NCBI GenBank assembly: GCA_947172415.1
Contig: OX359191.1
Coordinates: forward strand, 4,650,001-4,714,000
Direction: 5' to 3'
From: Chondrosia reniformis
Taxonomy: Eukaryota; Porifera; Demospongiae; Chondrillida; Chondrillidae
DNA length: 64,000 nt
Shown here: piece after piece, positions 28,595-60,193 of the stretch
Layout of the letters: each line of letters opens with the position of its first letter
How positions within the stretch are numbered: the first letter of the stretch is position 1
Notes under the pieces: model-generated
Database searches by the model: none
What the model was told of the DNA's origin: nothing
The model's input: only the letters and a program-made list of their open reading frames with translations
Made by a program: the position numbers and the translations under genes

Positions 28595-30556
28595 TCTGGC
28601 CATAGCTCCCATATCCCAAGTTCTTAACAGAACCAAGGGATATACCCTCTGGCATAATGGGGAAAGGAACACCATGTCACACTTGCTGTACATGGATGAC
28701 CTTAAGATATATGCTGGAGGGCCTGATAAACTCAGGGAAGCCATGGAATGTGTGGAGAAAACCTCAAATGCCATTGGCATGAGGTTTGGAGTGAGAAAGT
28801 GTGGAACAGCTCACATGCAAAAGGGGAAAGTTCTGGCCGGCCCAGACAACCCTGAACGCAGTGAAGAATCCATAAGGAGCCTTGAAAAAGGTACTACTTA
28901 TAAGTACCTAGGGCTAGAACAACTGTTTGAGGTAGATGACAGCAAGGTCAAAGCTTGCTTGATCAATGAATTGAGGAGGAGACTCCACAAGGTGTGGGGC
29001 TCTCACCTCAATGGTAAGAATGCTGCAGAAGCCTCTAACATGTTGTGTGCCTCTCTATTGAGATACTCTTACCCAGTTTTGAAGTGGACTCAAAGTGAGC
29101 TTCCAAAACTGGACCGAATGGTGAGAAAGATCATGAGAAAGTACCAGTGTCATCACTATAACTCTGCCATTGAGAGAGTGAATTTGCCTCGCTCTCAAAG
29201 TGGTAGAGGGCTCTGTAGTTTTCCTTTGGATCACGACAGGGCTGTTGTGAATCTGGCAAGATACCTCCATACTGCCAATGATCCACTCATAGCTGTTGTG
29301 GTTAAACACCAGAAGTGGCTGGAGTGCTCAAAGCAGAGGAGGACTGTCTTGAAAGAAGCCAGATTGATACTGAGAAGCCACGGAATAGAACTAGAACCGG
29401 AAATGTGGCTGAAGACAGATCCCTCACAAAGTAGTGTAAGAGAGTGGAGGAGAGTGACACGTGAGCTCCGGGAGGCTCAGACTGAAAGGTTAAAAAGTAA
29501 CCTAGCCGAAAAGTCTCACCAGGGCTCATACCGCAGACAAGTCACAAATAGGGAGTCTTATGTGTGGCTTTCTGAGGGGAGACTCAGACCTCAAACTGAG
29601 GCTCTGATTCTCGCAGCCCAAGATGATGTGCTGCACACTAGGTGGTACCAAAATAGGATTCTGAAGAATTCTAGCCTCCTAATGTGCAGAGAATGTGGCA
29701 AGGCTATGGAAACGGTCAAACACACACTAAACATGTGTGAGCCCAAGGGATTTTCTCTCTACAAAGAGAGACATGACCGGGCAATACTGATAGTGTTGTG
29801 GAGACTGTTGAAAGAATAGGGATTCAAGCAGGAAGAGCCCTGGTACAAACTAGAAGCAAAACCAGTCTATGAGAATAGGGCTGTCAAAATCTTGTGGGAT
29901 CCTAGTATCCCTACAGATGATGAAATGACAGAAAGAAGGCCAGACTTAGTGGTTGAGGATCGGCTATGTAAGTCCATCTTCATTATTGAGATGTCAGTTC
30001 CTACTGACAGTAATATTAATGGAAGATGGCAAGAGAAGTTCCAAAAGTACCAGAAGCTGGCGGCTGATATGAGGAAACAATTTAGGGGCTACCGAATTAA
30101 GGTAGTCCCGATGATAATTGGTGCTTTGGGGACAGTGGACACGCTCCTGGAAGACCTTAGGGGAATTCCAAAGCTGTCAAAAAGTGCAGTAGAAGTGATG
30201 AGAGCCATGCAGAGAACTGTTCTCTGTTCGGCTGTGAGGATATTGAGGCGACATCTATCTGTTGAGGGATTGGGGCCTGGACGATAAGTAGTCCTGTCCC
30301 AGTCCTTGCCTGTCGACCTCTGGAAAGCAGTGGTGGATTGGTGTATGGAGGTACTCCCTCCTATTATGACGGTCAACTTTGGCCCGACGTGCACCCGTCT
30401 GCTGCTGTCGGAAGGAGGAAAAGCCGAGGCTTCTGGCTAAAAACCCAAAGAAAGGAAAACATAACTGACTGAGGGTTGTCCAAGCCAGATACTCCTTGCC
30501 TTAGTACACTAAGGCAAGAAGTAACAAGGTTCTCCGTTAAGGCTTTTGTTTTTCAA
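28595..30556 (+). mobile_element. 5'-truncated LINE of the restriction-like-endonuclease group (R2/NeSL/Dong type)
   Basis: An insertion of about 1.96 kb is flanked by the same 11 bp, GTAGGTGCTAG, at 28,584-28,594 and 30,557-30,567. Elsewhere in the window this satellite context is uninterrupted (near 33,450: GTAGGTGCTAGTTGTATG). The element begins within the reverse transcriptase and runs through zinc-finger and endonuclease regions into a 3' untranslated region of about 270 bp that ends TTTTTCAA without a long poly(A). 5' truncation plus target duplication indicates target-primed reverse transcription. Related R2 elements are rDNA-specific; this one is in satellite. Confidence 0.88.
28596..30287 (+). 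pseudogene. Reverse transcriptase / CCHC / restriction-like endonuclease fragment with one in-frame stop
   Basis: One frame is open from the truncation point (LAIAPISQVLN, the motif-B region) through the catalytic YMDD (28,689-28,700) to a TAG at 29,817-29,819. It then continues open in the same frame to 30,287, so the upstream ATG at 28,674 is not a true start. A C-x2-C-x8-H-x4-C finger lies at 29,685-29,738. After the stop, RPDLVV and IFIIEMSVP match the PD-(D/E)xK signature of the restriction-like endonuclease found C-terminal to the reverse transcriptase in R2, R4, NeSL and related LINEs. The N-terminal DNA-binding fingers and early palm are missing. One nonsense codon separates reverse transcriptase from endonuclease and there is no frameshift. 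Confidence 0.88.
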
Positions 30557-35432: not shown

Positions 35433-35640
35433 ATGTACACTGATTATTTGTTGTAGTTAGTTTAAGAGGGAGAACATGGGGGAGGCATTGCTGTGGCAGT
35501 TGTAGCTCAGTGGCAGAACAACTGGTGGTCATAACCAGCTGTCCTGGGTTCAATTCCCAGCAATTGCTTCTTTCGTGTTTTTCCCTCTTTATGATGTTTC
35601 ATTGATTATTACTTGTGGTTTGATTATCACATCGATTATT
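35433..35640 (+). mobile_element. tRNA-like SINE insertion
   Basis: About 208 bp of unique DNA interrupt the array. The intact target is visible at 36,566 (ATTAGATGTATGTAGCAG), and ATGTA appears on both sides, so a short target duplication is likely. A tRNA-like head lies inside and the 3' part carries repeated TGATTATT units, consistent with a small SINE. No second copy is present in the window to define its ends. Confidence 0.55.
35496..35567 (+). tRNA. tRNA-like gene or pseudogene, anticodon uncertain
   Basis: The 72-base segment folds as a cloverleaf. The acceptor stem GCAGTTG/CAATTGC is 7 bp with one G-U, the D stem GCTC/GAAC has one mismatch, the anticodon stem is CTGGT/ACCAG, and the T arm CTGGG-TTCAATT-CCCAG is perfect. 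Internal promoter boxes A (TAGCTCAGTGG) and B (GGTTCAATTCC) are good. The anticodon loop GGTCATA lacks the usual U33 and would put TCA in the anticodon. A nine-base loop would expose CAT (Met), so decoding is unclear. It may be a live RNA polymerase III promoter heading a SINE rather than a functional tRNA. Confidence 0.6.
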
Positions 35641-41575: not shown

Positions 41576-41703
41576 TAGGCCTCTGTCAAGTTACACTCTT
41601 ACAACTTCGGACACACGTAGAACCCCTCTGCTAAGCTACACTCGTACAACTTTAGAGATGCTTAGAATCCCTCTGCCAAGCTATACTCGAACAACTTTAG
41701 ACA
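41576..41703 (+). repeat. 45-bp minisatellite, left of the 11.5-kb transposon
   Basis: Nearly three units of the form CCTCTGCTAAGCTACACTCG ... ACAACTTTAGA are present. The last breaks off at TTTAGACA, exactly where the large transposon starts. The array continues on the far side of that transposon at 53,231. Confidence 0.85.
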
Positions 41704-41889
41704 CGCATGTGGAACATGTCCGTAATAGTTCCGATTTTTTGAAGCCCCTTTTAGGTGCGAAATATTCGAACATTTTACAGGAAGTAGCGTGAATGTCATG
41801 TGACTCGCACATGAAGTTAATAATATTATAATATTCTGTCATGATGACGCAGCAGAGTGGAAAACGTAATCGATTCATTAGTCCCCTGT

Positions 41890-42066
41890 ACGGCGAGGGT
41901 CGGCGAAGGACTAGAAATCGAAAATCCTCAGTGGAAGAACGAGAAGGTACGGCGAGGGTCGGCGAAGGACTAGAAATCGAAAATCTCCAGTGGAAGAACG
42001 AGAAGGTACGGCGAGGGTCGGCGAAGGACTAGAAATCAAAAATCCTCAGTAGAAGAACGAGAAGGT
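41890..42066 (+). repeat. 59-bp tandem repeat, three copies
   Basis: Units starting ACGGCGAGGGTCGGCGAAGG recur at 41,890, 41,949 and 42,008, nearly identical. The 63-codon open frame across them only reflects the repeat having no stop in one frame. They lie in the left subterminal part of the 11.5-kb element. Confidence 0.9.
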
Positions 42067-42079
42067 TAGATGTTTTATG

Positions 42080-42780
42080 TAACGTAACATTTCCTTTTAG
42101 ACTTTTTAAATGATTTGTGTAACGTATCATTTTAGACTTTCTAGTTGACGTTACACAAATCATCTAGAAAGTCTGAAATGCTACGTTGTAACGTAGCATT
42201 TCAGACTTGTGTAACGTATCATTTTTGACTTGTGTAACGTATCATTTTAGACTTTTGGATAATGTATCATTTTAGACTTTTGTGTAATGTATCATTTTAG
42301 ACTTTTGTGTAACGCATCATTTTAGACTTTCTAGTTGACGTTACACAAATCATCTAGAAAGTCTGAAATGCTACGTTGTAATGTAGCATTTCAGACCTTT
42401 GTGTAACGTATCATTTTTGACTTTTGTGTAATGTATCATTTTAGACTTTTGTGTAATGTATCATTATAGACTTTTGTGTAATGTATCATTTTAGACTTTT
42501 GTGTAATGTATCATTTTAGACTTTTGTGTAATGTATCATTTTAGACTTTTGTGTAATGTATCATTTTAGACTTTTGTGTAATGTATCATTATAGACTTTT
42601 GTGTAATGTATCATTTTAGACTTTTGTGTAATGTATCATTTTAGACTTTTGTGTAATGTATCATTTTAGACTTTTGTGTAATGTATCATTTTAGACTTTT
42701 GTGTAATGTATCATTTTAGACTTTTGTGTAATGTATCATTTTAGACTTTTGTGTAATGTATCATTTTAGACTTTCTAGTT
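42080..42780 (+). repeat. 25-bp minisatellite with two embedded perfect palindromes
   Basis: The unit TTTTGTGTAATGTATCATTTTAGAC repeats about 20 times and is most regular from 42,400 to 42,770. Two copies of a foldback, GTCTGAAATGCTACGTT with its complement GTAACGTAGCATTTCAGAC, occur about 190 bp apart (near 42,168 and 42,358). A second spread inverted pair is formed by CTAGAAAGTC and GACTTTCTAG. No gene is seen. Confidence 0.88.
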
Positions 42781-42884
42781 GATTTGTGTAACGTAGTGTT
42801 TTAATATAGACTCTTCAGATGATTTGTGTAATGTAGCGTTTCATTTTAGTTTGTTTAGATTGTTGAAATCTTTTGACATGTGGT

Positions 42885-42900
42885 GGCTTTGAAAAAAGCC
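42885..42900 (-). terminator. Histone-type 3'-end stem-loop of the CCCH gene
   Basis: On the minus strand, 20-odd bases after the stop codon, GGCTTT-TTTC-AAAGCC forms a six-base-pair stem with a four-base TTTC loop. It is preceded by AAAC and followed by ACCACA. This matches the metazoan replication-dependent histone stem-loop bound by SLBP (6-bp stem with GGC/GCC base, 4-base U-rich loop, A-rich 5' flank, ACCCA-like 3' flank). A purine-rich GTCAAAAGATTTC follows about 10 bases on, where the U7 snRNA-pairing element normally lies. No AATAAA is seen between stop and stem-loop. Confidence 0.8.
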
Positions 42901-42919
42901 GTTTGTTAGTTCTTTTTAT

Positions 42920-43246
42920 TTATTTTTCTTCTTTTCTCTTTTTTGCAGCTGGTTCCTTTTCCTCCTCCAGATGTACAAACCTGCACTTCGGGTTTGTACA
43001 GGGCCTCCCCCAACACAACATGAATGGCCTCTTGCAGCCCTCAAGCAGGTGAGGCTCCACATGCCTGTATTCACACTCTCCAGGACCTTTTTTACATTTT
43101 TCTTGGAACCTACACAGCATTGGTAGGTTCCCTGGCTTCTTGGTCTTGGCTCTCTTTTCTCCTTTTCCTCCTTTTCCTCCGTTTTCTTTAGGGTTTAATA
43201 TAGTTATCTGGCATTTGTCAAGATTTCTGAAGTTGAAGGTTGCCAT
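42920..43246 (-). CDS. 108-residue protein with two CCCH zinc fingers
   Basis: This small, lysine-rich, intronless gene encodes two CCCH-type fingers. Finger 1 uses C45, C51, C58 and H62 (C-x5-C-x6-C-x3-H); finger 2 uses C78, C83, C88 and H92 (C-x4-C-x4-C-x3-H). Both ends are basic (GGKGGKGEKRAKTKK and AAKKRKEEK), which suggests nuclear location and RNA or DNA binding. Spacings with short third intervals are more like Nab2/ZC3H14 or RNA-virus-restriction-type fingers than the C-x8-C-x5-C-x3-H type. The start ATG has good context (AAAAATGGC) and lies about 40 bp from a TATA box; the 3' end carries a histone-type stem-loop. It shares strand and transposon with the large transposase-like gene, so an accessory role (RNA binding, end recognition or regulation) is possible but unproven. 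Confidence 0.8.
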   Translation of the reverse strand: MATFNFRNLDKCQITILNPKENGGKGGKGEKRAKTKKPGNLPMLCRFQEKCKKGPGECEYRHVEPHLLEGCKRPFMLCWGRPCTNPKCRFVHLEEEKEPAAKKRKEEK

Positions 43247-43285
43247 TTTTGCTGTATCAGCTGTTGTAGCTATGCTGGGTAAAGT

Positions 43286-43294
43286 CTATTTATA
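43286..43294 (-). promoter_or_regulatory. TATA box of the CCCH gene
   Basis: TATAAATAG on the minus strand lies 40-48 bp upstream of the ATG. Initiation about 30 bp downstream would give a 5' untranslated region of only about 10-15 bases. This compact arrangement is also common in histone genes. Confidence 0.65.
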
Positions 43295-43459
43295 CTGTTA
43301 GTTGGAGGGTGTGTCATCACGCCCATTATAGGCTGCTTACTCACTTTCTCACCACCTTAACCTTGCACTCAAGGTGAAGATATGACCTTATTATCAATGT
43401 ATTGTTACCTTGTTTTCACTTTATTGTTATTGTCTTGCGTGTAAATTAATATCATTTAA

Positions 43460-45250
43460 TTGTATTTGTCTGTACATCTATGCTGTTCCATATGTGGTTC
43501 ACTATTGGGACCAGCACCAAAGAAATTGTCCATTCAAGGACATTTGGTGGTGTTCCTAGAAATGAAGCCATATGGACAAATCTTCAGCACTTTGGGAAGC
43601 CATACTTTTGAGGTAAGTCCTTTAATTGTATGCATTGTGTTGTGTCATCTAAACTTTTGCTAAAATGATTTTGCACATGTAAGGAACTTTAGCTGTATTT
43701 GTCTGTTCATCTATGCTGTTCCATATGTGGTTCACTATTGGGACCAGCACCAAAGAAATTGTCCATTCAATGACATTTGGTGGTGTTCCTAGAAATGAAG
43801 CCATATGGACAAATCTTCAGCACTTTGGGAAGCCATACTTTTGAGGTATAAGTCCTTTAATTGTATGCATTGTGTTGTGTCACCTAAACTTTTGCTAAAA
43901 TGATTTTGCACATGTAAGAAACTTTAGCTGTATTTGTCTGTTCATCTATGTTGTTCCATATGTGGTTCACTATTGGGACCAGCACCAAAGAAATTGTCCA
44001 TTCAAGGACACATTTGGTGGTGTTCCTAGAAATGAAGCCATATGGACAAATCTTCAGCACTTTGGGAAGCCATACTTTTGAGGTAAGTCCTTTAATTGTA
44101 TGCATTGTGTTGTGTCACCTAAACTTTTGCTAAAATGATTTTGCACATGTAAGGAACTTTAGCTGTATTTGTCTGTTCATCTATGCTGTTCCATATGTGG
44201 TTCACTATTGGGACCAGCACCAAAGAAATTGTCCATTCAAGGACATTTGGTGGTGTTCCTAGAAATGAAGCCATATGGACAAATCTTCAGCACTTTGGGA
44301 AGCCATACTTTTGAGGTATAAGTCCTTTAATTGTATGCATTGTGTTGTGTCACCTAAACTTTTGCTAAAATGATTTTGCGCATGTAAGAAACTTTAGCTG
44401 TATTTGTCTGTTCATCTATGCTGTTCCATATGTGGTTCACTATTGGGACCAGCACCAAAGAAATTGTCCATTCAAGGACACATTTGGTGGTGTTCCTAGA
44501 AATGAAGCCATATGGACAAATCTTCAGCACTTTGGGAAGCCATACTTTTGAGGTATAAGTCCTTTAATTGTATGCATTGTGTTGTGTCACCTAAACTTTT
44601 GCTAAAATGATTTTGCGCATGTAAGAAACTTTAGCTGTATTTGTCTGTTCATCTATGCTGTTCCATATGTGGTTCACTATTGGGACCAGCACCAAAGAAA
44701 TTGTCCATTCAAGGACACATTTGGTGGTGTTCCTAGAAATGAAGCCATATGGACAAATCTTCAGCACTTTGGGAAGCCATACTTTTGAGGTATAAGTCCT
44801 TTAATTGTATGCATTGTGTTGTGTCACCTAAACTTTTGCTAAAATGATTTTGCGCATGTAAGAAACTTTAGCTGTATTTGTCTGTTCATCTATGCTGTTC
44901 CATATGTGGTTCACTATTGGGACCAGCACCAAAGAAATTGTCCATTCAAGGACACATTTGGTGGTGTTCCTAGAAATGAAGCCATATGGACAAATCTTCA
45001 GCACTTTGGGAAGCCATACTTTTGAGGTATAAGTCCTTTAATTGTATGCATTGTGTTGTGTCACCTAAACTTTTGCTAAAATGATTTTGCACATGTAAGG
45101 AACTTTAGCTGTATTTGTCTGTTCATCCATGCTGTTCCATATGTGGTTCACTATTGGGACCAGCACCAAAGAAATTGTCCATTCAAGGACATTTGGTGGT
45201 GTTCCTAGAAATGAAGCCATATGGACAAATCCTTTAACTGTATGTATTGT
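43460..45250. repeat. 233-237-bp tandem repeat, eight copies
   Basis: The landmark TGCTGTTCCATATGTGG occurs at 43,481, 43,714, 43,949 (one variant base), 44,184, 44,419, 44,656, 44,893 and 45,130. Copies differ by small indels (AAGGACATTTGG or AAGGACACATTTGG; GAGGTAAGT or GAGGTATAAGT). The last copy is truncated. Each unit holds a 60-70 codon frame on one strand that is not conserved as protein across all copies. The array fills the space between the two genes of the 11.5-kb element and could act as transposase-binding subterminal repeats or as spacer. Confidence 0.93.
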
Positions 45251-45494
45251 GTTGGGAAATTTAAAATGACTTGATGTTATGTACATTGAACACTAACCAG
45301 CCAGCAAAGAGGGATACCTAGACTTTGTTAAGTCTTTCATGCATCCTCATTACCAGTAAATTAGTGAAGTATGTACTAATGACTGACATACATTTCAGCA
45401 TAACAATGAAGTGGAATATGCATGGCTGGGTAGAATGTTGATCTGAACAGATAGACTCATTAGCATATGCATGGCCAATCTTCTGAGAAGTGAT

Positions 45495-45510
45495 GGCTTT
45501 AAAAAAAGCC
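45495..45510 (-). terminator. Second histone-type stem-loop, 3' of the large gene
   Basis: On the minus strand about 100 bases after the stop of the 1183-residue gene, GGCTTT-TTTT-AAAGCC forms the same six-base-pair stem with a TTTT loop. It is preceded by ATAAAA and followed by ATCACTT, a weaker match to ACCCA, and then TCAGAAGATTGG, which could serve as the U7-pairing purine element. No AATAAA lies between stop codon and stem. Its likeness to the stem-loop of the neighbouring CCCH gene (same stem, same strand, same transposon) supports a shared 3'-end mechanism. Confidence 0.65.
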
Positions 45511-45512
45511 TT

Positions 45513-45613
45513 TTATAATAGAGCCACACAACGACTCTTATAATAGAGCCACACAACGACTCTTATAATAGAGCCACACAACGACTCTTATAATAGAGCC
45601 ACACAACGACTCT
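45513..45613 (-). repeat. 25-bp tandem repeat in the 3' untranslated region, four copies
   Basis: GAGCCACACAACGACTCTTATAATA recurs exactly with starts at 45,521, 45,546, 45,571 and 45,596. On the transcript strand each unit can itself fold as GGCTCT-ATTATA-AGAGTC, a stem with one mismatch and a six-base loop. The array sits between the stop codon of the large gene and its histone-type stem-loop. Confidence 0.9.
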
Positions 45614-48600
45614 CTAATGAAGATTACATACCAATTTCAAGCAAAGCTTTATGTCCTTAGCATACTTACTGTACATGGTATTATTGGGAGATACTTGGGC
45701 TATTTGGAGATCTAAACTACGTTTCTTAGCTGAGATCTTTTTCCTAAAGTAACGGGCTAGTGAATGATACCTTTCCTTCTGAGAAGGCAACATATGCCTA
45801 TCTCCTTGCTTATACATACACCGCAATTGATCAAATACATTCAAATCAGTGGAAGAGCCAAGCAATTTGGCAATAGCTTTACACACTGATGATTCAAGAG
45901 ATACTTCAGGACAACTATTCAGTACCTCATCTACTTGTACATCTACAGTACCTTCTGTGTTCAGGTTAGGATCTTGCTCATCATTTCCATTACTATTTTC
46001 CTTTTGGACAAAACCATCTTCACCATTTTCAGATGCTTCAGAACTTTCCTCACTCTGAATTGTTTTCCTACATGGAGTGGAAGACTTAGGAGAAGCCAAA
46101 GTAGGCTGGATAAATGTTGCTTCAAATGAAAACTCAGGTTCACTTGAAACATTCACACAGTTAGCAGAGGAAATATCAGATATGTTACCTTCCCTTTCAT
46201 TTTCTCTTTCCATGATAATAGGAAGTGTTATTTTCTTTTCAATAACCTCCTTCCAACAGGATTCGGACCTTTCAGCAACATCTTCCATTGTAGCATTACG
46301 GAAATGTAACAATTCAGGCCCTTTAGATGAGATTTCTTCACCATCCTGCGAGTCATGGAAACAAAAGCTGCCACATGAGTCTCTGTGCCACCAAACCCCT
46401 TCACCACACTTTAAATAAGGACTTATTCTTTTAAGGTGAGCCTTGTATGAATCTGTCCTTCTATTAATAAACTCTTCCTTGAAGATAGTGCCTGGGTAGG
46501 GAGGAAGTTTTGAAGCAGACTGACTAATTCTTGAGTTTTCCTTTCTCAATTTTAACAAAGGGTTGCTGGTTTTTTGATTCCTTTTGCATTGAAGTCTTTT
46601 CAGTATCCCTGGTAGCATGTTTTCTGGCTTGTGATCAGTACACTTTGCTGCTGATTCAGCACTCTTGAAGATTCTCTCCTCATTTTCAGTGTTGGTTGAC
46701 CTGCAGCTAACAACTTCATGTTGCATAGGACCATGCACAAGTAAAGCATGAAAATAATTTGAGATCATTGTGTCACCAAACAGCTCACAATGCAGCTCAT
46801 GAACAATATATGCACAATTATAAAACTGTAGGCATTGTTTGGGACTTCTGTTAGAATCTTTTGAATACAGAATATTGGACAGTTGAACAAGACAGCAAAT
46901 AAAAGTAGCCACAGTACTTGGAGTATCATATAAGTGGAATATGTGAGCTACATCTACTAGTGCTTTACGAAGGTCAGAACCATACAAATTTGCCTTCTTC
47001 CACAAGGTACTAAAATAATCACACAATGAAGTTTTTAGCCTTGAAGGCCCCAAAACCGAGGGCAATTGTCTAAAGACAGCACCTAGATAGCCCTTTAAAT
47101 CATGGAGAGGCTCACAAGGAAGGACACTGTAGCTATCTAGATGAAACTCATCTAATGAACTTTCAGGTGCCATCATCAGTAAAGAGGGAACTCTTTGCAC
47201 TCCCCGGAGCATTTCCTTTAGGACATTTAATCTACCCTTTTTATCAGACGGATAGTCCTTAACACCCCTTTTCTCGAACTCAATTCTTAACTGATTTGTG
47301 TTTAATTCTTCGTAGTACTTTATCTTACCAGGAACTTTACCAAAGTGTCCTCTTGTAGCCACTTTAAGATTTTTCTGCAGCGTCCTTTGTTCACACTTAA
47401 CTGCATGTGGAAAATCTGCAAAACTATTACGGTGACAAACACAAGCAACACAAGGATAATTTCCACCACATGTGATCCCAGCTTCAAATTGTGCTGCAGG
47501 TTTATCACCCTTGAAGAAACGCAGCCTATCAGTAATTCTGATTCCAGTTGAACTTAGAACCTCATCACTTAGACCATCCAATTCTGAGAGTCGCTCAGGA
47601 ATTAAAGTAGCCTGATCTTGTAATGATGAGGACCCATGAGCAACTACATGAATTTCTCCTTCTTGGAGAAACTCTTCTACATTTTTACCTATTTCATTTT
47701 CAGTCATGAACACAATAGGGTCATACATAACCCCAACCATTATGGCTAAAATACCATGTGATGCTAGACTTGAGTGGTCATGCCATATCCAGATAGTCCT
47801 TGTCCTCTCATATTTGGAAAGGAGGTGTTTCAATTCCTCCAAACTCAAATTTTCAAATTGATTCATAGAATATCCTGCCCCTTCCCTAAGTACACCTAGA
47901 ATATATTCCTTACTCATTGCTTCAATCTCAACATCAGTATGAAGCCTCATATATTTTTCATGGGCCTTCAGTAAACCATTTCGAATGTCAAACAAAGGAA
48001 ATTTACGACTTTGGGCAACAGTTTCAACCCTTTCTCCTTTGTGATATCGTACTAAAGTAATGGGAATACATGGTATGCCTTCATTTAATACACCATTTTG
48101 GACAAGGGAACGGTCAATGTCTACTAATCGCCTTTTGTTAGGAGGTACGGGTACTGCCATAGATGTGCTTTGGAATCTTTTTTTTGTAGACTTTGGCTTT
48201 GGAACTATTTCAAGCCCTGGAATTGAAGGATTAATTTCTTGAGCAAGTAACCTAATTTTATTACTGCCATCAGTAGCACTGACATCAAACAATTTAGCTA
48301 TATCACTAGCTATAAACTTTGTATTAGGGTCCCATGTTTTTAAGCATTCACAAAGTTCTGGAAATTTGCTGCATTCATGTGGTCTCAGTGGATACCGTTT
48401 CTTTTTCGGGGCTTTGTCATCACAGGGTGGCTCAAAGTATTGTTCTTTGCGAAAGCTATCAGCCTTGCTTAAACTAATATTATTTGAATAAATAGCTGGA
48501 AGGGTACTAGAATCAAGTATGTCCTTAAACTCTGAGATTAGCTTCTTTTGGGCTTCTGTAACTAATTTATTAACATCACCCTCACTATAACACTTATTTC

Positions 48601-49165
48601 TAGATTCATTCAGGGGTTTATTACAAGTCTGCTTCTTCCCATTAAATGTTTTCAATGTTGAACTTCTCTTTGAAGCATTTTCTTTCTCATATTCAGGCAC
48701 TGAGATATTAAAAAAAGGCTTCAGTGGGAAAGTTTTTTGAATTTCTGCAAACTGTGTAGCACAAGCTACACAGTTTGACAAAGAATGTTTTTCTTTTTCA
48801 GGTGAGGACAATGCAGCCCAATTTAAAGAAGAAAAGGCTTTTACATAGGCTACCTTTAAAGATGAAAAAGGAAAACCTTTGGCAAAAGCTTTTTCTATCA
48901 TTTTACAATGAGATTCAAATAAGCTAATGGATTTAAGACTTTTTTTCTCAAAATAATTAGGGCCAATCACAAATTGTGGTCCCACAAATAAGCTTTGGAA
49001 ACATTCTCTAGTGTTATACTCAACCTTCTTAGTCTTCTTTTTACTCTTCTCCTCAGAAATAGTTTCCTCGGATGTCTCGGCACGCCTTTTAGGCATACAT
49101 TCATACACCAAAGTGCGGCAAAAGCCACAGTTGAAAGATCTTCCCGAATTGTTGACAAATGGCAT
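45614..49165 (-). CDS. 1183-residue transposase-like protein of the 11.5-kb element
   Basis: A single 3.55-kb open frame. I do not recognise a named family; the general layout recalls RNase H-fold DDE transposases. Candidate acidic residues are D463 (IWHDHSS), D554 (FKGDKPA) or D689 (EPLHDLKG), and E827/E829 (NTENEER). A cysteine-histidine cluster C566, C572, C575, C577, H578 follows D554, as zinc-binding inserts do in CACTA/KDZ-type transposases. Residues 622-656 look like a SAP DNA-binding motif (LRIEFEKRG...GRLNVLKEML). A basic N-terminal region (25-47) may be a nuclear signal, and C13/C16 hint at an N-terminal finger. The start could instead be an internal exon, since TTTTTAG directly precedes the ATG like a splice acceptor. 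A four-unit repeat and a histone-type stem-loop follow the stop. Position between TIRs supports a transposition role, but the catalytic assignment is inference. Confidence 0.75.
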   Translation of the reverse strand: MPFVNNSGRSFNCGFCRTLVYECMPKRRAETSEETISEEKSKKKTKKVEYNTRECFQSLFVGPQFVIGPNYFEKKSLKSISLFESHCKMIEKAFAKGFPFSSLKVAYVKAFSSLNWAALSSPEKEKHSLSNCVACATQFAEIQKTFPLKPFFNISVPEYEKENASKRSSTLKTFNGKKQTCNKPLNESRNKCYSEGDVNKLVTEAQKKLISEFKDILDSSTLPAIYSNNISLSKADSFRKEQYFEPPCDDKAPKKKRYPLRPHECSKFPELCECLKTWDPNTKFIASDIAKLFDVSATDGSNKIRLLAQEINPSIPGLEIVPKPKSTKKRFQSTSMAVPVPPNKRRLVDIDRSLVQNGVLNEGIPCIPITLVRYHKGERVETVAQSRKFPLFDIRNGLLKAHEKYMRLHTDVEIEAMSKEYILGVLREGAGYSMNQFENLSLEELKHLLSKYERTRTIWIWHDHSSLASHGILAIMVGVMYDPIVFMTENEIGKNVEEFLQEGEIHVVAHGSSSLQDQATLIPERLSELDGLSDEVLSSTGIRITDRLRFFKGDKPAAQFEAGITCGGNYPCVACVCHRNSFADFPHAVKCEQRTLQKNLKVATRGHFGKVPGKIKYYEELNTNQLRIEFEKRGVKDYPSDKKGRLNVLKEMLRGVQRVPSLLMMAPESSLDEFHLDSYSVLPCEPLHDLKGYLGAVFRQLPSVLGPSRLKTSLCDYFSTLWKKANLYGSDLRKALVDVAHIFHLYDTPSTVATFICCLVQLSNILYSKDSNRSPKQCLQFYNCAYIVHELHCELFGDTMISNYFHALLVHGPMQHEVVSCRSTNTENEERIFKSAESAAKCTDHKPENMLPGILKRLQCKRNQKTSNPLLKLRKENSRISQSASKLPPYPGTIFKEEFINRRTDSYKAHLKRISPYLKCGEGVWWHRDSCGSFCFHDSQDGEEISSKGPELLHFRNATMEDVAERSESCWKEVIEKKITLPIIMERENEREGNISDISSANCVNVSSEPEFSFEATFIQPTLASPKSSTPCRKTIQSEESSEASENGEDGFVQKENSNGNDEQDPNLNTEGTVDVQVDEVLNSCPEVSLESSVCKAIAKLLGSSTDLNVFDQLRCMYKQGDRHMLPSQKERYHSLARYFRKKISAKKRSLDLQIAQVSPNNTMYSKYAKDIKLCLKLVCNLH

Positions 49166-49205
49166 CTAAAAACCCGGTGGATAAAAGGAAATATTAGCTA
49201 AAACG

Positions 49206-49481
49206 GATCTCCAATAATACACGGAAGAAGCATCCATTTGCAAAAATGACGTCACCAATCGATTCAGTTTCGCATGACGATTCCATTTCAAGTGTCGGCG
49301 GGCGCTTATCTCGATCTCTTTTACGGCTTATACGGGCGCTTATTAATGTTTGTTTTCATGGCGTTTGCGCTGAATTCTGTCAAGTGCTGAGTGTCTGTCA
49401 AGTCAAGTTTCTCTCGTAAGTTGTAGTCTGCATTCTTATAACGCCCTCTATCAACTCGCTCCCTCACTCTTCTTGGGCATA
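49206..49481 (+). repeat. Merlin left terminal inverted repeat (276 bp)
   Basis: The arm reads GGATCTCCAATAATACACGG at its tip and is the reverse complement of 52,024-52,299. It contains a TGACGTCA palindrome and a CCAAT box close to the tip, plus repeated GGGCGCTTAT words. This arm faces the start of the large gene. Confidence 0.93.
49248..49255. promoter_or_regulatory. TGACGTCA (CRE/ATF-type) site followed by CCAAT in the Merlin TIR
   Basis: TGACGTCACCAAT combines a full cAMP-response-type octamer with a CCAAT box. The mirror copy is at 52,250-52,257. The left copy lies 83-90 bp upstream of the ATG of the 1183-residue gene and the right copy faces outward, so the TIRs can plausibly act as promoters in both directions. 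Function is inferred from motif only. Confidence 0.5.
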
Positions 49482-49982
49482 GGGCTATGGTTATTGGTTG
49501 TCTCCATGAACAAGTGTAACCTCCCTCCCTTGATCACTCAATGAAGCCTACCGGATTCGCCTTTTGGACGAGCTCGAAACAAAATTTGACAAGTGTGAGT
49601 TACCATATTATCGTATCCGTTTTATTCGGTTTTTACCTATTATTACCTAATTTCATAAACTAGTCCCATATTCACATTTCTAAGCAATGATGTTTTCAGA
49701 AATGCGTACGTGTGGGCTATTTACAGTTTGTTTTTACACATGAGTGGTTAATTTAGTGTAAATGTGAAGCCATCATGACTGATGAGCAGTGGTGAAAGGC
49801 TGGGATCACCCGATTGCAGTCCTTCCGTATATTATTGGGATTATTGCAGATCTCATTCATCTTGGACTGCATCCACAAGCTTGCTGATCAGTGCAATGGG
49901 ATATACAAAGTTACATGGAAAGAAAAAAAACTAAATAAAAACGCATGCAAAAAAACTAAATAAAAACGCATGCAATAAAAAG
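49482..49982. other. Merlin interior between left TIR and transposase stop
   Basis: I see no gene. A short direct duplication, AAAAAAACTAAATAAAAACGCATGC, occurs twice near 49,920-49,978, just 3' of the transposase stop. It could be its polyadenylation area, but no AATAAA is seen on the minus strand. Confidence 0.6.
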
Positions 49983-51084
49983 TCAGGGTAGAGGGTACTG
50001 GTTGGCAATGTCTCTGATTATGTTGGTGAATGCCTCCCTTTTTGTATTCCCATGCCTTTCCCGCCACAAAAACTCATCTAAATAGGAGGGTAACTGCAAT
50101 TCAGAAACCCCCTTCATAGCTTTAAACTTTCTTTTGACCCTGTTCCAATATGACTCTATATTTTGAGTATGGACCCCTGTTGTAGGGTCAACAAAGTTTA
50201 AGCTGTGGTTGACTGTGCTATGACTAGCTACATTTGGCAGCTGAGCCACACTATTGTAAGCCCTCCATTGATCAGACTGGATATCTGTTCCTGGTCTGAC
50301 GTGGGCCTGTATAATTGGCAAGAGGGTTGATGCAGTCCTGTCAGGGACCAGCTCCATGTATCCAAGGGCTGGCTCCACTGAGGTGTCACACATTCCGAAC
50401 ACCCACCTCTCTTGCCTGGTTGCTCTTCCTCGATGATACTGTATATTAATTAATTTTTGCATTAATATGTGACTATTTTCCATTGAATGATGTACAACAT
50501 TCTCTTACTTTAGGCTTATGGTTAAAGAGACTTTCATCAATTTGTACCGTCTTCCCTGGTCCACCCAATAGGATGGATGTTGATAGTAGCTTGGTTGAGC
50601 ACACTTCACGCAGCCACTGGTAAACTGCACAAGCAGTGCTCTCCGTCACTTCAAGGGACTCCGCGGTTACAGTCACCATGTGCTCACATGACCAGTGGTG
50701 AATTAACAGCAACCATTTCTTGAGGGTCAACTTCGATTTCGAAAAGAAGCTCCCTTCCCTAATCGAACATCCTTTGTTGCACATGGGACACCTCCATCTA
50801 AGTTATATTATAATTAATTTGTTAATTATTTGTATTCTTTTTTGTTAATTATTTGTATTTTGAATAAAATATTACATTGTCTTGAAGAAAATATTTTTGT
50901 ACCTGTAACCATCTGAAACATCATTTCTGCTGCTGACTACCATAGCAGTATTGCAGCTGGAGCAGTCCCTACAACTTGCAAGCAAGTGCTTGGACTGCAT
51001 CCAGTGAATCAAATCATCTAGTGGGCCAAAAGCGACTTCTCCAACTTCCATTAAGGACATTTTTGCAATAAGTACCGCGCTCAA
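49983..51084 (-). CDS. Merlin (IS1016-like) transposase, three exons
   Basis: Join on the minus strand: 51,084-50,903, 50,797-50,509, 50,438-49,983; introns of 105 and 70 bp are both GT-AG. The spliced frame is 308 residues without a stop. The first junction makes DGYRWRCPMC and the second NHKPKYHRGR, both usual Merlin text, which supports the model. An N-terminal zinc ribbon uses C38, C41, C64 and C67. The DDE residues are D148 (VQIDES), D213 (QSDQWRAY) and E252 (QNIESYWNR), all present, so the enzyme could be active. It would bind the 276-bp TIRs and cut and paste the element with 8-9 bp target duplications. An alternative start is M9 (MSLMEVGEV). Upstream DNA to the right TIR holds a direct repeat but no other gene. 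Confidence 0.92.
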
Positions 51085-51434
51085 ATGAACCGCCTTAATT
51101 TTACGTATGAATTTTAATTAGCGATATGAATGGAATTAAAAATGCGAAAATCTTGGAAGTTCGATCGACTCAAAAGCTTATACATTCTTAAGCGTTTATT
51201 CACAATGCTACGATTATTGCGTAATATTTACATATACAAATATACAAGATTGCGCAAGAACGATTACGTCATAATCAAATATGTACTAAAATTAGTCACA
51301 ATTGCAAAATAAATAATTATTATATTTTTTACAAAAATAGACTAAAAAATGAGTTAAAGTCTCTTCTCTTTCATTTTCTCTTTCATTTTTAATCTGTATA
51401 GAAAGAAACAAAGGTAATACTCATCATTCCTAGG

Positions 51435-51880
51435 TGCACATCTGATCATTTGACAGAGTTGTTGCACTAAATGTACCTCACATTCTGGTATACTTAATGT
51501 ATGGTGAAAGATAGGGCAAATATTTTAAATCATCAAAATTTGCAAAACTCATAGGACATGTTTCATGGATGTCTGTGAATGCTGAGACTAAGTTTCAGCA
51601 TCACATCTGTCCATTTGACGGAGCTGTTGCACTAAATGTACCTCACATTCCGGTATACTTATGTATGGTGAAAGATAGGGCAAATATTTTAAATCATCAA
51701 AATTTGCAAAACTCATAGGATAAGTTTCATGGATGTCTGTGAATGCTGAGACTTAGTTTCAGCATCACATCTGTCCATTTGAGGGAGCTGTTGTACTAAA
51801 TGTACCTCACATTCCGGTATACTTATGTATGGTGAAAGATAGGGCAAATATTTTAAATCAAAGCACATATTTGGAGATAG
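51435..51880. repeat. 165-bp direct repeat inside Merlin, three copies
   Basis: Landmarks TTTGACAGAGTTGTTGCAC and GGTGAAAGATAGGGCAAAT recur with about 165-bp spacing (near 51,441, 51,606, 51,770). The third copy is cut short after AAATATTTTAAATCA. No conserved frame is present. It sits between the transposase start and the right TIR. Confidence 0.88.
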
Positions 51881-52023
51881 CGAACTGACAGGTATTATGC
51901 AAATCGCGGAATCCCAAATTACCCGTAATTCAAGCTTAACAGCTCACGGGATGGTAACAGTTATTATATAAAGTGAAAGAAATATATGAAACACTGAAAC
52001 AACACATTATTATTATATGACTT

Positions 52024-52299
52024 ATGCCCAAGAAGAGTGAGGGAGCGAGTTGATAGAGGGCGTTATAAGAATGCAGACTACAACTTACGAGAGAAACTTG
52101 ACTTGACAGACACTCAGCACTTGACAGAATTCAGCGCAAACGCCATGAAAACAAACATTAATAAGCGCCCGTATAAGCCGTAAAAGAGATCGAGATAAGC
52201 GCCCGCCGACACTTGAAATGGAATCGTCATGCGAAACTGAATCGATTGGTGACGTCATTTTTGCAAATGGATGCTTCTTCCGTGTATTATTGGAGATCC
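52024..52299 (-). repeat. Merlin right terminal inverted repeat (276 bp)
   Basis: This is the reverse complement of 49,206-49,481 over its full length, ending GGAGATCC at 52,299, followed by the target duplication GCTAAAAC. Confidence 0.93.
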
Positions 52300-52307
52300 G
52301 CTAAAAC

Positions 52308-53230
52308 TGTGAGCGTGATAGAGGGCTAACAATGTAAGCCTATATCAAAGCAAGGAAGAAATAAAAACCACGATGATTGCCATTGATTCTTCCCGTGAAT
52401 CACGTAGACTAGTACACGTAAAGGTTGCATACAGAAGTAGCATATTGATGATATTGTTACTCTAACTGATTCCACTTACCTCTTAAGACAAAAACGATCT
52501 GAAGAAAGAAGCCTTACGTGAAAAACACTTCGGAAAGAATGACACGTTTTGTTATGCAATAATATTTACGAATATTTTAGGTGCAAGTTAAGCATTAACG
52601 ATGCTACGTCATATATGACGATTGAATGACGTCAAAATTTTGTTTGCAATATTAGGCTGACTGTCACGTGATAATGTCTCGACTCGAACGAAAGAGACGA
52701 AATTTACAAGAAAATGACTATTAGACAATGGAGGATTCTTTATTAAAGGATTTTTTGATTTCATTCTCTTCAAAAGGTAACAGCCTAAGAGTTCCATGTG
52801 TACTCCTGCAATATTCTCTTGTTTCGCTGAGATCTGAAGTGTTGAAGACCTGAGAGAAAGGTAAGAAAATACATTTTCACTTATTACTCGAAAACTAAAA
52901 GGAATTTAAAAGGAGTATACACACAATCGTTTAATATTATTATTGCGCATTGAATGGTGTCACTATTTACTCTATTTTTGTAATTTCCAATGTCTAATAC
53001 GGCATTTTCGGTAATTAAGTAACTATCACTTACGGCCGATTATCTCAGCCGTTAAGCATGCAATCCAAGCGCTGATTTTACTAACGTATTAAGCGTGCAT
53101 AGCGCTTCAATTCTATACAATTCGTTTAAATATAAAATAATTCTACATTAAAATAAAAGACAATTAAAAAAGTGTTAGTTAAATATTCTTCTACTTGATT
53201 TTCCGGAAATGCGGACATGTCCCACATGCG
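52308..53230. other. Right subterminal region of the 11.5-kb element
   Basis: AT-rich DNA with no credible gene. It is collinear with 33,950-34,731 of the smaller relative: GGTAACAGCCTAAGAG, AATTTAAAAGGAGTATACA and GGTGTCACTATTTACTC all have counterparts there. Before the Merlin insertion it lay immediately upstream of the 1183-residue gene and so presumably contains that gene's original promoter. Confidence 0.75.
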
Positions 53231-53520
53231 CAGACTTAAAACGCCTCAGTCAAGTTACACTCAAACAACTTTAGACAGACTTAGAACGCCTCTGTCAAGC
53301 TACAATCGTACAACTTTAGACACACTTAGAACCCCTCTGCTAAGCTATACACTCGAACAACTTTAGACAGACTTAGAACCCCTCTGCTAAGCTACACTCG
53401 AAAAACTTTAGACCGACTTAGAACGCCTCTGTCAAGTTACACTCGAACAACTTTAGACAGACTTAGAAGGCCTATGTCAAGTTACACTCTAACAACTTTA
53501 GACAGATTTAGAACGTACAA
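53231..53520 (+). repeat. 45-bp minisatellite, right of the 11.5-kb transposon
   Basis: About six units of GACTTAGAACGCCTCTGTCAAG...ACTCGAACAACTTTAGACA have starts 45 bp apart (53,233, 53,278, 53,323). They continue in phase with the copy interrupted at 41,703, showing that the transposon landed inside the array. Confidence 0.9.
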
Positions 53521-53946: not shown

Positions 53947-56227
53947 CGTATTATATCGACGTATATTAGTACATAAATATGTAACCAGTACATATGAATA
54001 GTGCATCCATATAGTATATATAACTAGAACATAAAACTAGTAAATGCAAATAGAAACTAGTACATACAACTAATATATATATAAAACTAGTACAATTAAC
54101 TAATTCATACAACTATTATATGCAAACAACTGGTTCATACAACTAGTATTTACAATAAGGTCGTACTACTAGTTCACACAACTATTAACTAGTACATATA
54201 ACCAGTACATACAACTAGTTCATAAAACTAGTACATACAAGTAGTTCATACAACTAGTATTTACAATTAGTATGTAAAACTAGTTCATACAACTAGTAAC
54301 TAGTACATAGAACTAGTATATTCAACTAGTACATACAACTAGGACCAACAACTAGGATATATAATTAGTAAATACACCAACAACATATAACTAGTAAATA
54401 CACATATACCTTGTAATTATAAATAGTACATACAACTAGTACTTACAGCTAGCGCATTCAACTAGTATATATAACTAGTTCACAAACATATAACTTCTAC
54501 ATACATATAACTGGTACTTATACTAGAAACAACTAGAAACTAGTCCATAGAACTAGTGTATCTATAACACTAGTACATTTAACTAGTACAAAACTAGTAT
54601 ATACATAAAAGGAGTACATACTACTAGTACATAAAATTAGTAGGTACAACTATTTCACACAACTAGTAATTAGTACATATATCTAGAACATGTGACTATG
54701 ACATACAACTAGTACATGCAACTAGTACATACAACTACTTCATAAAACTAGTATACAACTAATAAAAACAACTAGTGTACTCATCTTGTACATACAATTG
54801 GTTCATATCTAGTACATACAACTAGTACATACAACTAGTACATCCAACTAGTGCATACATTTAGTACATACAACTACCACCAACAACTTGTTCATAAAAC
54901 TAGCACCTACAACTAGTAAATATAACTAGTATTAGTAAATACAACTACATACAATTAGTACATACAACTACCACATACAGCTAGTTCATACAAGTAGAAC
55001 ATATACCTAGTACTTATAAAGAGAACTTACAACTAGTACAATTACACACAACTGGTACATACAACTAGTACATACAATTAGTATCTAGTACATACAAATA
55101 ACACCTCCCTAGTACCTAATATAACTAGGACTTGAACCTACAACTAGTTCAAAAAACTAGTACATACAACTGGTATATACAACTAGTATAAACATACAAC
55201 TAGTACACAGAATGTGGACATACAATTACCACATACAACTAGTACTTTCAACTAGTACATAAAACAAATACACACACCTACTACATATAACAAGTACACA
55301 CACCTACTACATATAACTAATACATAAACATATAATTAGTATATATGAATTGTACATACACATAGTACATACAACTAGAAACTAGTACATACAACTGGTA
55401 TATACCTACAACTAGTACATAAAACTAGTATATCCAGGTAGTACATAAAATTTGTAGGCACAGCTAGTTCATAAAATTAGTACCTACTAAATATAATTAG
55501 TACTGCGACTGATATATACAACTGATACATACAACTGATACATACAACTAGTGCATGCAACTAGTACATACAAGTAAGACATATAACTAGTACATAAACC
55601 TACTACATATAACAAGCACATACACGTATACTGAGTAAATGTAAATAGTAAATACAACTAGTATATACAGCTACCGCTACAACTAGTACATATAACTAGT
55701 ACACACGCATATAAATAGAACAAACAAATAGTAAATACAACTAGTACATACAACTTGTACGTACAACTAGTACATAAAACTAGTACACAGACGTGTACAT
55801 ACAATTAGAACATACAGCCACTATATACAACTAATACATACAACTAGTACCTAAAACTATTAAATATAGCTAGTTCTAGTACATTCAACTAGTACATAAA
55901 ACTAGTACTTTAAAATAGTATATATAACTAGTACACACACCTACCACATTTGACTAATACATAAATATATAACGAGTTCAAATAAATAGTGCATCCACAT
56001 AATACATACAACTAGTACATAAAACTAGTAAATACAACAAAAAACTAGTACATACAACTAGCATATATATAAAATTAGTACATTTAACTAGTACATACAA
56101 CTGGTATATACATAGAACTGGTACATACAACTAGTACGTACAACTTGTTCATAAAACTATATAGTACATATAACTAGTACATACAACAATAACACACTAC
56201 TTATACATTCAACTAGTACATACACTG
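53947..56227 (-). repeat. 13-bp satellite in inverted orientation
   Basis: Here the array reads CATACAACTAGTA, the reverse complement of all earlier blocks. Long phrases of the forward array (for example the GTGCATCCATATAGTATATA context) are present as complements. At 56,228 the orientation flips back within a few bases (AGTACATACACTGTATGTAAAAG). No gene is seen. Confidence 0.95.
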
Positions 56228-57021: not shown

Positions 57022-60000
57022 ATGAGCGATCATCTAGCAGATACACTATTGTGTTCTTCATCTTCAAGCAGCGAAATGCACGAGTCACAAGTCAATGATA
57101 CCGTTTCAAGGCGAGGTAGTTCAAGCGAAGCTTTATCAGCTTGCCTTCACTATCAATTAATGGAGACTGGTGAGATAACCATACAGAATGACTTTGAAGA
57201 ATCAGAATTATTGAACAATTTTGAATATACTGAAGCTGATCATCCTGAAGAAATAAAAAAATTTTCAGACACATCCACAGAGGTATGTAACAAGGACCTG
57301 TGCAGGAGTGCTTATCATAATTATATAGTTCCCACTTTGCATGTGTTGTGGACTTTCTTTAGACATAATTTATATATGCATATTTTTTAGTGTTTTTACT
57401 ATTCAACCCACTTCACCTAAATGAATTTTATACTAGGTACCCATTGACTATCTCTATAATCCAATTCACTAAAACCTTAATTGCACTGCCATAATTCAGC
57501 CCTTAAACTACTTTCTGTATCAGCATGATCTTCCCACGGTATATGATTTATGCATTAATGAGTAGCCTTCCTGCAATGTTCACACCGCACCTTGTTTTTA
57601 CTAATATGAACATAATCATATGCACAATCACATATATATATAGTTAGATAGATAGATAGATAGATAATTATGTACTCATTTGTATTGTTGTAGAGTTCTC
57701 AATGTGATATCAATTTGGAAGACTTTGACTCTGATGAAGAAAGTGAAGAAATTGGTGACTTAAGGTCAGATGAGAGGATTCCACACTTGTCTGAATTCAT
57801 GCACATCCTGCTGCTCTGGTCTGTGCTGAATAATATTGGAGACAATGCAATGACATCCTTGTTAAAAAGTTTAAAGTCTTTGTTTGCCAAAATGGAAGCA
57901 GCTGTTTCTTCCGAAATATTTTCACAGTTTTCTGCTGCTTTTCCAACTTCTTTGGCAAATGGCTACAAATTTCTTAAGCAAAAAGAAGAATTGCAACCAA
58001 AATTATTTACTGTGTGTGACAAATGTTACTCTGTATATGACACTGATAGCCGTAACCCACAATTAAATCAGTGTATTCATCAGGAGGCTCCTGCACATTC
58101 ACAGGCTTCACGGAGAGGCATATGTGGTAATAGCCTATTCTTTGAAGGAAGCTTATCCTAAATTGACATTTCCATACATTTCACTATGTTCATCATTAGA
58201 GGCTATGCTTTCAAGGCCTTGTATGCTAGAATTATGCTTCTCTTGGAAGCAAAGGAAAAATGATGATGCCAATTTGTTATGTGATATACATGATGGACTG
58301 GTTTGGAAAGAATTTTCCAGTACTTTAGATGATGATGATGCCTTTTGGTTGTACTTAGCCTTAAATGTAGACTGGTTCCAACCATTTAAACACACACAGT
58401 ATTCTGTTGGTGCAATATACCTGTCGATTTTAAATCTACCCAGGGCCCTCAGATTTAAAGAGGAAAATGCTATACTTATAGGAATAATTCCAGGTCCCAA
58501 GGAGCCACCTTTAAATCTTAATTCCTTTTTACAACCATTGGCATCAGAACTAATAACATTATATGAAGGTTATGAAATTGAAGTTGGCAGTGTGTCCTTG
58601 AAGTTACATGCAGTAATAAATCTAATTGCTTGTGACATTCCCGCGACTCGGAAAGTTCTTGCTCTTCCAGGACATTCAGCTACTTTAGGATGTTCAAAAT
58701 GCCTAAAATCATTTAAGGTAAATCATTTTGGAGAAAAGCCAGATTTTTCAGGATTTGACATTAGCATTTGGCCTAAACGTGATTCTTCTCTTCATAGGGA
58801 ACTTGCTTATAAATACAAAGAGTTACCTAACAATTCTAGGCAGAGAGCCTTTGAAGTGGAACATGGCCTAAGGTTTTGTCAGCTGCTTGACCTACCATAT
58901 TTTGATATCATCCGATATCATGTTATTGATCCTATGCACAACCTATTTGAGGGTTCTGCCAAGTACTTCATGAAGCTACTCTTGGAAAACAACTTGATTA
59001 ATATGGGTATAGTAAAAAATGTTTCTAAAGCATTTGTTACTCCTGTGAAGATTGGCCGTTTACCAATGAAAATTGATTCCAATTACAGTGGTTTTACTGC
59101 TGATCAATGGAGGAACTGGACAATAATATACAGTCCAATAGTCCTGAAAGATGCTATTACACCAGAACTTTATGATATTTGGATGAACTTTGTTCATGCT
59201 TGTTGCTTGTTGTGCCGAAGAGCTATCAAGAAAGATATGAATGAAGAGGCAGGGTTGAGACTGCAAGCATTTTGTGAAGGCGTGCAAAATTATTTTGGAA
59301 AACAGTCATGCACAATGAACATGCATTTACATCTCCATCTAACATCATGTGTACTTGATTATGGCCCTCTCTATGGCTATTGGTGTTTTCCCTTTGAAAG
59401 GTATAATGGAACAATTGCTGCTTATTCGACAAATCGCAAAAGCTTTGAAAAACAACTAGCCAAAAAATTTTTGAAAGGACAATTTATTCGTACAATGTCT
59501 GTACCACCAGGTTATGACCATTTGAAGTCATATGTTAATGATGTCTTCATTGATGACTGTTCTACTGTGATCTCAGTAAGTCATTTACATAGAATTGAAA
59601 CTCTTCAAAATTATCTTTCACCCAGTCAACAATTAGAGTATGCCTTGCAAGAACATGAAATTTATTTGATGCAACTGAAACACAGTACCACATCAGTACT
59701 TAGGCTGGATGAGCAGACTGGGCTATCTACCATGTACAAATCTCTGTATGGCCAGACTGCCCTTATTAATACCTCAAGTGCATATGCAGAGACATCGAAG
59801 AATATGGTTTATGCAGGGGAGAAGATAAAGAAAGGACAGATAGTTACAGCAAAGTGGCCTCTTGGAGACAATTCTGAAAGGATAGGTGAGGTCAGGAACA
59901 TACTGAAACATAAGATACTCTTCACCAATGAATCTAGAGAAGAGCTAGCATTGGACCACATAGCTCTTGAAATTTGGTGGTATAAATTCTACCCTCAACC

Positions 60001-60193
60001 AAACTATTTTGGATCTCCATGCATAGTTGTAGAGAATGTGTATGACCCTGCTCTGTCTAACCACCAATACATTCCTCTACAAAGGATAATAGCAAGATGT
60101 GCATATGCAAAACTAACCATCACTATTCCACCTTATCCTGAAGATGAAGTTATTGTTGTGAATCCTATGCCATTTAACTTCTCAGTTTTATAA
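57022..60193 (+). CDS. TNP2-type (CACTA/EnSpm) transposase, one intron, one apparent frameshift
   Basis: Exon 1 runs 57,022-57,282 (MSDHLADTLL...). A 411-bp GT-AG intron (57,283-57,693, phase 0, with a GATA microsatellite) follows, and exon 2 starts at 57,694. Exon 2 encodes the acidic DSDEESEE stretch, the CDKCYSVYD zinc motif and SRRGICGNSLF. Between about 58,136 and 58,160 the reading frame shifts by one base and then stays open to 60,193. The second part has the family hallmarks: LNVDWFQPF, IIPGPKEPP, ACDIPATRK, a CSKC pair, VIDPMHNLFEG and PFERYNG. These hold the expected catalytic D, D and E (residues 83, 269 and 425 counted from 58,124). The frame break could be a mutation, an assembly error or recoding; if real, the copy is dead. 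The GTG-like start at 58,124 is not a true initiation codon. Confidence 0.85.

Follow-up and report, generated by a model that had tools for sequence, protein, structure and literature searches.

In metazoans, the mRNAs of replication-dependent histone genes are bound by SLBP and cleaved by CPSF73 under the guidance of U7; they lack a poly(A) tail and are limited to S phase. Their 3'-end signal comprises a stem-loop of 16 nt (a 6-bp stem and a 4-nt loop) between A-rich and ACCA-like flanks, followed at fixed spacing by a purine-rich downstream element, which these mRNAs need only for cleavage. To our knowledge a signal of this type is otherwise reserved in animals for histone messages, and a full-text literature search, the coverage of which left out most subscription journals, brought up no account of a histone stem-loop in a transposon. 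Among the known DNA transposons, a combination of short terminal inverted repeats (TIRs) and a 2-bp target duplication fits the CACTA elements.

Here we describe a two-gene DNA transposon of the kidney sponge Chondrosia reniformis (a demosponge), termed element A, in which both genes end in an SLBP/U7-type histone 3'-end signal. Judged from the DNA sequence, the element probably uses this signal for the 3' ends of its own mRNAs, a reading to which we assign a probability of roughly 0.77. What is new is the union of a transposon with this 3'-end signal, each of which belongs to a known kind. In the following, the window denotes the whole stretch of DNA that was analysed (64,000 nucleotides, C3:4650001-4714000); genome-wide searches covered the assembly of 117.38 Mb in 15 contigs. 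Both coding regions of element A are single open reading frames (ORFs). The features are compiled in Table 1.

Table 1. Features of element A in the window (positions in the window; minus, reverse strand)
Feature	Position	Strand	Basis or remark
Element A, two-gene DNA transposon, including the nested foreign element	41704..53230	minus	shared 3' end of copies; TIRs here and in copy L054
TIR CGCATGTGGAACATGTCCG, at the 3' end of the genes	41704..41722		comparison of ends
TIR CGCATGTGGGACATGTCCG (minus strand), 5' end	53212..53230		18 of 19 bases as in the other TIR
Target duplication CA, left	41702..41703		same dinucleotide at both ends of L054
Target duplication CA, right	53231..53232		reading of the flank
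CCCH gene, 108-aa ORF, two CCCH-like motifs	42920..43246	minus	ORF list, Pfam
TATA box TATAAATA of the CCCH gene	43287..43294	minus	48 bp before the ATG
Possible poly(A) signal AATAAA, overlapping with the stop codon of the CCCH gene	42919..42924	minus	counts against an exclusively histone-type end
CCCH stem-loop GGCTTT-TTTC-AAAGCC	42885..42900	minus	RF00032 32.1 bits; R1 match 42867-42912
CCCH downstream element AAAAGAT	42868..42874	minus	10 nt past the stem; R1, pattern search, spacing
Tandem repeats, unit of ~235 bp, between the two genes	43455..45234		repeated matches
Putative transposase, ORF of 1183 aa	45614..49165	minus	ORF list; without Pfam family
Short tandem repeats of ~25 bp from transposase stop to stem-loop, number varying among copies	45515..45613	minus	reading of the sequence; lengths compared among copies
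Transposase-gene stem-loop GGCTTT-TTTT-AAAGCC	45495..45510	minus	R1 match 45477-45522; 103 nt past the stop
Transposase downstream element AGAAGAT	45478..45484	minus	10 nt past the stem; R1, pattern search, spacing
Nested element with IS1595-like transposase, GCTAAAAC on both sides; not element A proper	49205..52299		PF12762; absent from L054 and L055

The sequence-only reading had described the smaller gene as a zinc-finger gene built like a histone gene, and every part that it named is present: the ORF, the TATA box, the stop codon, the stem-loop with its flanks (CAAAC before and ACCAC after the stem) and the AAAAGAT. The stem begins 19 nt past the stop. Its suggestion that the encoded protein is of the CCCH type stands as a Cys/His pattern, C-x5-C-x6-C-x3-H and C-x4-C-x4-C-x3-H by eye, and falls short in Pfam, where the best family, the Nab2-like zf-CCCH, scored 19.5 bits (E 8.9e-4) against a cut-off of 27. 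The label is based on the pattern read by eye and on sub-threshold Pfam matches. In its two CCCH-like motifs and its best Pfam family the protein resembles Nab2/CPSF30-type CCCH proteins, from which it differs in being small, basic and encoded by a transposon; in the PDB, CPSF30 and NAB2 were matched at E 0.18-0.47, below significance. Changes among copies of the ORF are few, too few for dN/dS. More distant CCCH ORFs, with 33-41% identity, form a second set at C3:4771585, C8:3258135, C11:3389415, C5:3438990, C2:4140503, C1:4144935 and C2:6151513. No canonical stem-loop was found after the two of these seven that were read (L096 and L097, ~350 nt each, partly coding); L096 gave one match of 17.9 bits, which we read as lying within the coding sequence.

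Scored with the Rfam model of the histone 3' stem-loop (RF00032), the CCCH stem-loop reached 32.1 bits (E 7.9e-8 in 201 bases) and the transposase stem-loop 26.8 bits, the cut-off being 34. The sequence-only reading had named a sub-threshold score as grounds for giving up its claim. Formally such a score was obtained, but as a refutation it says little, since only two of 15 host histone stem-loops reach 34 bits and the other 13 lie below it, such that the shortfall of the CCCH site does not discriminate here. Two copies of element A exceed the cut-off (L010 with 36.7 bits, L023 with 34.2 bits), and the top score among the matches listed, 38.3 bits, belongs to L009 of a second repeat family, B. 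Genome-wide there are at least 72 matches to RF00032 (75 of 23,939 candidates were scored). The 15 host stem-loops stand behind genes that, from their upstream ORFs, we take to be two H2A, four H2B, three H3, five H4 and one H1, the types being named from the sequences. A Pfam check of one gene per type (n = 5) returned histones for H2A, H2B, H3 and H1; for the H4 example only a related histone-fold family was matched at that threshold.

A more specific yardstick is provided by R1, a covariance model built solely from 14 distinct host histone 3' ends, the E-values of which are rough. With this model the host histone genes score 49.4-67.1 bits. Over the whole 64-kb window and up to E = 1, R1 found two sites only, both on the minus strand: the CCCH site with 56.0 bits (E 8.6e-11) and the transposase site with 50.7 bits (E 1.7e-9). 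The claim of a complete histone-type 3'-end signal on a transposon gene is strongly supported by the sequence, and it extends to both genes and to related families. Over 80 loci R1 gave 92 matches up to E = 5; of 92 loci, 12 were set aside, nine because they duplicate places covered elsewhere in the set or in the window and three because they are U7 candidates. Here the CCCH sites of element A scored 34.6-56.4 bits and its transposase sites 26.0-49.7 bits, compared with 31.8-49.5 bits for family B, 30.4-38.4 bits for family D, 35.2 and 23.2 bits for family E and 40.6 bits for the single locus F. The sole other match in the 80 loci (18.7 bits) lies antisense on a histone stem-loop; above this score a match always belonged to a histone gene or to a family that bears the stem-loop.

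The likeness of element A to the metazoan replication-dependent histone genes comprises the stem-loop, the CAAAC/ACCAC flanks, the spacing of the AAGAT and the TATA box. Each of the two signals follows its ORF in sense orientation. In both genes of element A the AAGA core lies 12 nt past the stem, as in 12 of the 14 histone genes; one further histone gene (H4, L041) has it at 13 nt, and another (H3, L043) carries the variant TTGAT at 12 nt. The histone 3' ends have on average 33.5 of 46 letters in common with each other, and each element A site has 37 of 46 in common with its closest histone 3' end (H3 L029 for the CCCH site, H4 L049 for the transposase site). The short 3' UTR before the CCCH stem is also histone-like, with 19 nt compared with 18-41 nt from stop to stem in the host genes, whereas the transposase stem-loop, at 103 nt past its stop, departs from them. 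Unlike histone genes, those of element A encode non-histone proteins and belong to a mobile element, and their 3' ends are predicted from sequence. The TATA box of the CCCH gene is also closer to the ATG (48 bp) than the TATA motif found in eight of the 14 histone genes (74-92 bp). A histone-like promoter for the CCCH gene was considered and set aside, the TATA box being by eye the sole common feature.

With regard to a DDE-type transposase, the 1183-aa ORF matched no Pfam family, Transposase_21 included, and a profile of its core matched no PDB chain; it is called a transposase by context. The ORF is intact in at least three places of the genome (the window, C3:8210397 and C7:2695299), and the element A family has thus probably been active recently. 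With its large single-ORF putative transposase, its short TIRs and its 2-bp target duplication, element A is like the CACTA-like DNA transposons; unlike these, it ends in CGCATGTGG rather than CACTA or CACTG and its ORF has no Transposase_21 match, and we do not place it in the CACTA superfamily. The same ORF also differs in this respect from a 689-aa ORF elsewhere in the window (58124-60193, plus strand), which has a Transposase_21 (CACTA-type) match; no R1 stem-loop occurs there. No relatives were confirmed in viral contigs.

The copies of element A have a sharp common end at ~41704. In both copies that were read at both ends, the window copy and L054, CA stands on either side, and the flanks in the window, when fused at CA, give one unit of the adjoining satellite. 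Ten more copies show the 3' terminus, which is altered in two of them. In its TIRs, its target site duplication and its copies at different sites, element A has features of a cut-and-paste transposon. The element ends at 41704 and 53230, together with the transposase stem-loop, the signals of other families and the AATAAA at the CCCH stop, go beyond the sequence-only reading. The nested element measures 3.1 kb and has a transposase of the IS1595/ISXO2-like type (PF12762). This IS1595/Merlin-like insertion separates the 5' part of the window copy from the transposase ORF and may affect the expression of that copy.

The earlier claim had been made dependent on the recurrence of the stem-loop in other copies of the element. 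It does recur in most, and a minority has it broken, deleted or missing. Among 19 aligned copies the CCCH stem is perfect in 14, contains a G-U pair in one, is broken in three and is deleted in one (L079); it is also lost by deletion in L074, a further copy beyond the 19. Degenerate CCCH relatives in L061 and L062 are without the stem-loop, and R1 has no match in either locus. The transposase stem-loop is intact in 18 of the 19 copies and deleted in L002, an otherwise near-identical full-length copy. Minority letters amount to 1.4% in the 46-nt CCCH region, compared with a median of 3.0%, and 37 of 645 windows are equally low or lower; for the 33-nt transposase region the value is 1.2%, compared with 1.3% downstream. 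Such conservation within the family says little, since the copies are young.

Genome-wide pattern searches were carried out together with a reversed control. The 33-base pattern GGCTTTTNTNAAAGCCAYHACNNNNNMRAAGAT, which spans the stem-loop and the AAGAT, gave 48 matches in the genome and none in the control; judged by position and sequence, histone genes account for nine of these, element A for 27 and family B for 12. The 24-base pattern AANGGCTTTTNTNAAAGCCAYNAM gave 72 matches, again with none in the control, which were assigned to histone genes (14), A (28), B (13), D (11), a further family G (5) and E (1), the assignment of C9:3389141 to D and of three places to G being based on the 24 letters alone. 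By assignment, transposon stem-loops thus outnumber those of histone genes 58 to 14, about four to one, and because of this excess they might compete for SLBP.

Ten of the compared copies of family B share their 5' end, and by eye the family is apparently spliced. The stem-loop and the AAGAT form an island of identity between the transposase gene of A and family B, while the adjacent flanks align poorly; identity resumes ~50 nt (A) and ~90 nt (B) past the stem, and the stretch after the transposase stem-loop is 78.7% identical over 183 bp. The AAGA core lies 12 nt past the stem in B, 13 nt in F and 11 nt in E, by eye. In family D, the copy L090 encodes, in two overlapping frames, a protein that is 29-31% identical to the 1183-aa ORF; its strand is opposite to that of the region ending in two tandem stem-loops. 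Family G has one stem-loop, which lies on the strand opposite to the transposase relatives of C8 and C10 and ~2 kb beyond them. In both D and G the AAAAGAT after the first stem-loop is replaced by AAAGGA, with AAGG at 10 nt, and no clear ORF precedes this stem-loop; for these two reasons a function of the stem-loop is less sure in D and G. Among more distant relatives of the transposase, with 31-38% identity, the 3' flanks of nine loci were read (two of the loci overlap), and no stem-loop was found in these stretches; at two of the places, C8 and C10, the signal lies just outside the flank read and on the opposite strand.

Some further observations concern these families. Family E consists of two copies (L048 1052-1096 and L087 372-415) that are 90% identical over 124 bp and carry a histone-like stem-loop; no gene was recognised upstream of it. 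In L045 (987-1033) there is a single histone-like stem-loop, and a sequence related to the 235-bp unit of element A lies ~400 bp away. The common segment of D and G begins with CACTGGTACC / CACTGGTACCTTATGGCTGTTCC (L057, L093, L094) and is perhaps a CACTG-type terminus.

That both genes of element A end in a histone-type signal suggests an expression timed to replication by means of the host histone machinery. Transcripts of the element would be bound by the host SLBP, cleaved by the U7 snRNP with CPSF73 a few bases past the stem, and would remain without a poly(A) tail. One step further, their accumulation and translation would, as for histone mRNAs, fall mainly into S phase, and the end of replication would bring their decay. 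If transcripts were limited to S phase in this way, the transposase would be made while the DNA replicates, and a cut-and-paste element can increase in number when it leaves replicated DNA for DNA that has yet to be replicated. As for the host factors, SLBP is present in the assembly, where two adjacent pieces match PF15247 with 60.1 and 41.8 bits. A convincing U7 snRNA was not found there: RF00066 gave two sub-threshold matches, and a U7 pattern search gave two matches compared with three in its control, neither of the two with a U7-like hairpin.

In the strongest alternative, the stem-loops derive from histone genes by capture and have either no role or a secondary one, the transcripts being polyadenylated in the ordinary way at AATAAA motifs near the stops or further downstream. 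Polyadenylation is a possible route given that an AATAAA overlaps the CCCH stop and that another stands directly before the transposase stem-loop in ten of the 18 copies that keep it. The near-identical L002, which lacks the transposase stem-loop, and the little extra conservation inside the family point in the same direction. However, the signal is found on two separate genes, in each of which the downstream element is spaced as in the host; it has been kept between A and B despite the diverged neighbouring sequence, and it occurs also in families with proteins at only 29-31% identity. Moreover, neither AATAAA nor ATTAAA occurs around the transposase stop of the window copy, in an interval that begins 150 bp upstream of this stop and reaches 570 bp downstream of it. 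On balance we consider a captured, inert stem-loop unlikely, though of the alternatives it deserves the most weight. Less probable by about half is that the stem-loop works within the RNA, for instance by binding SLBP for translation, by localisation or by titrating SLBP, while the 3' ends are made elsewhere. Such a role would agree with the first stem-loop of D and G, which has no proper AAAAGAT, and with the excess of transposon over histone stem-loops; against it, A and B do have the downstream element at the right spacing. A repeat-borne palindrome that resembles the histone signal by accident is highly improbable: the RF00032 scores below 34 bits and the common ancestor of all element A copies, which makes these copies non-independent, would allow for it, but R1, which never saw element A, finds both sites at the E-values given above, neither genome-wide pattern has a match in the control, and flanks and spacing are strand-specific.

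We therefore retain the use of the signal for the element's own mRNA 3' ends as the preferred reading. The wider proposal is that the histone 3'-end pathway has been taken over for their own genes by an entire group of sponge DNA transposons, namely A, B, D, G and perhaps two further families, with tailless, protein-coding non-histone mRNAs in step with S phase and a transposition tied to replication. As far as the sequences go, this proposal is evenly balanced. If the reading is right, mobile elements that place the signal on non-histone proteins break the histone-only rule and offer a natural test of the signal requirements in an early-branching animal. They would also show how a transposon can link its enzyme directly to DNA replication, and such transcripts would be under-represented in poly(A)-selected RNA libraries.

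The surroundings of element A in the window are rich in repeats. A 13-bp satellite-like unit, TATGTACTAGTTG, forms a 28-kb array (67-28560) and recurs at ~53980-55990; satellite-related sequence adjoins the right end of element A and also some other copies (L044, L057, L094). Two ORFs on the plus strand (28674-29819 and 21213-21839) resemble, by eye, reverse-transcriptase fragments. A tRNA-like gene at 35495-35570 (plus strand) scored 46.2 bits with the Rfam tRNA model and was called tRNA-SeC (tca) by ARAGORN.
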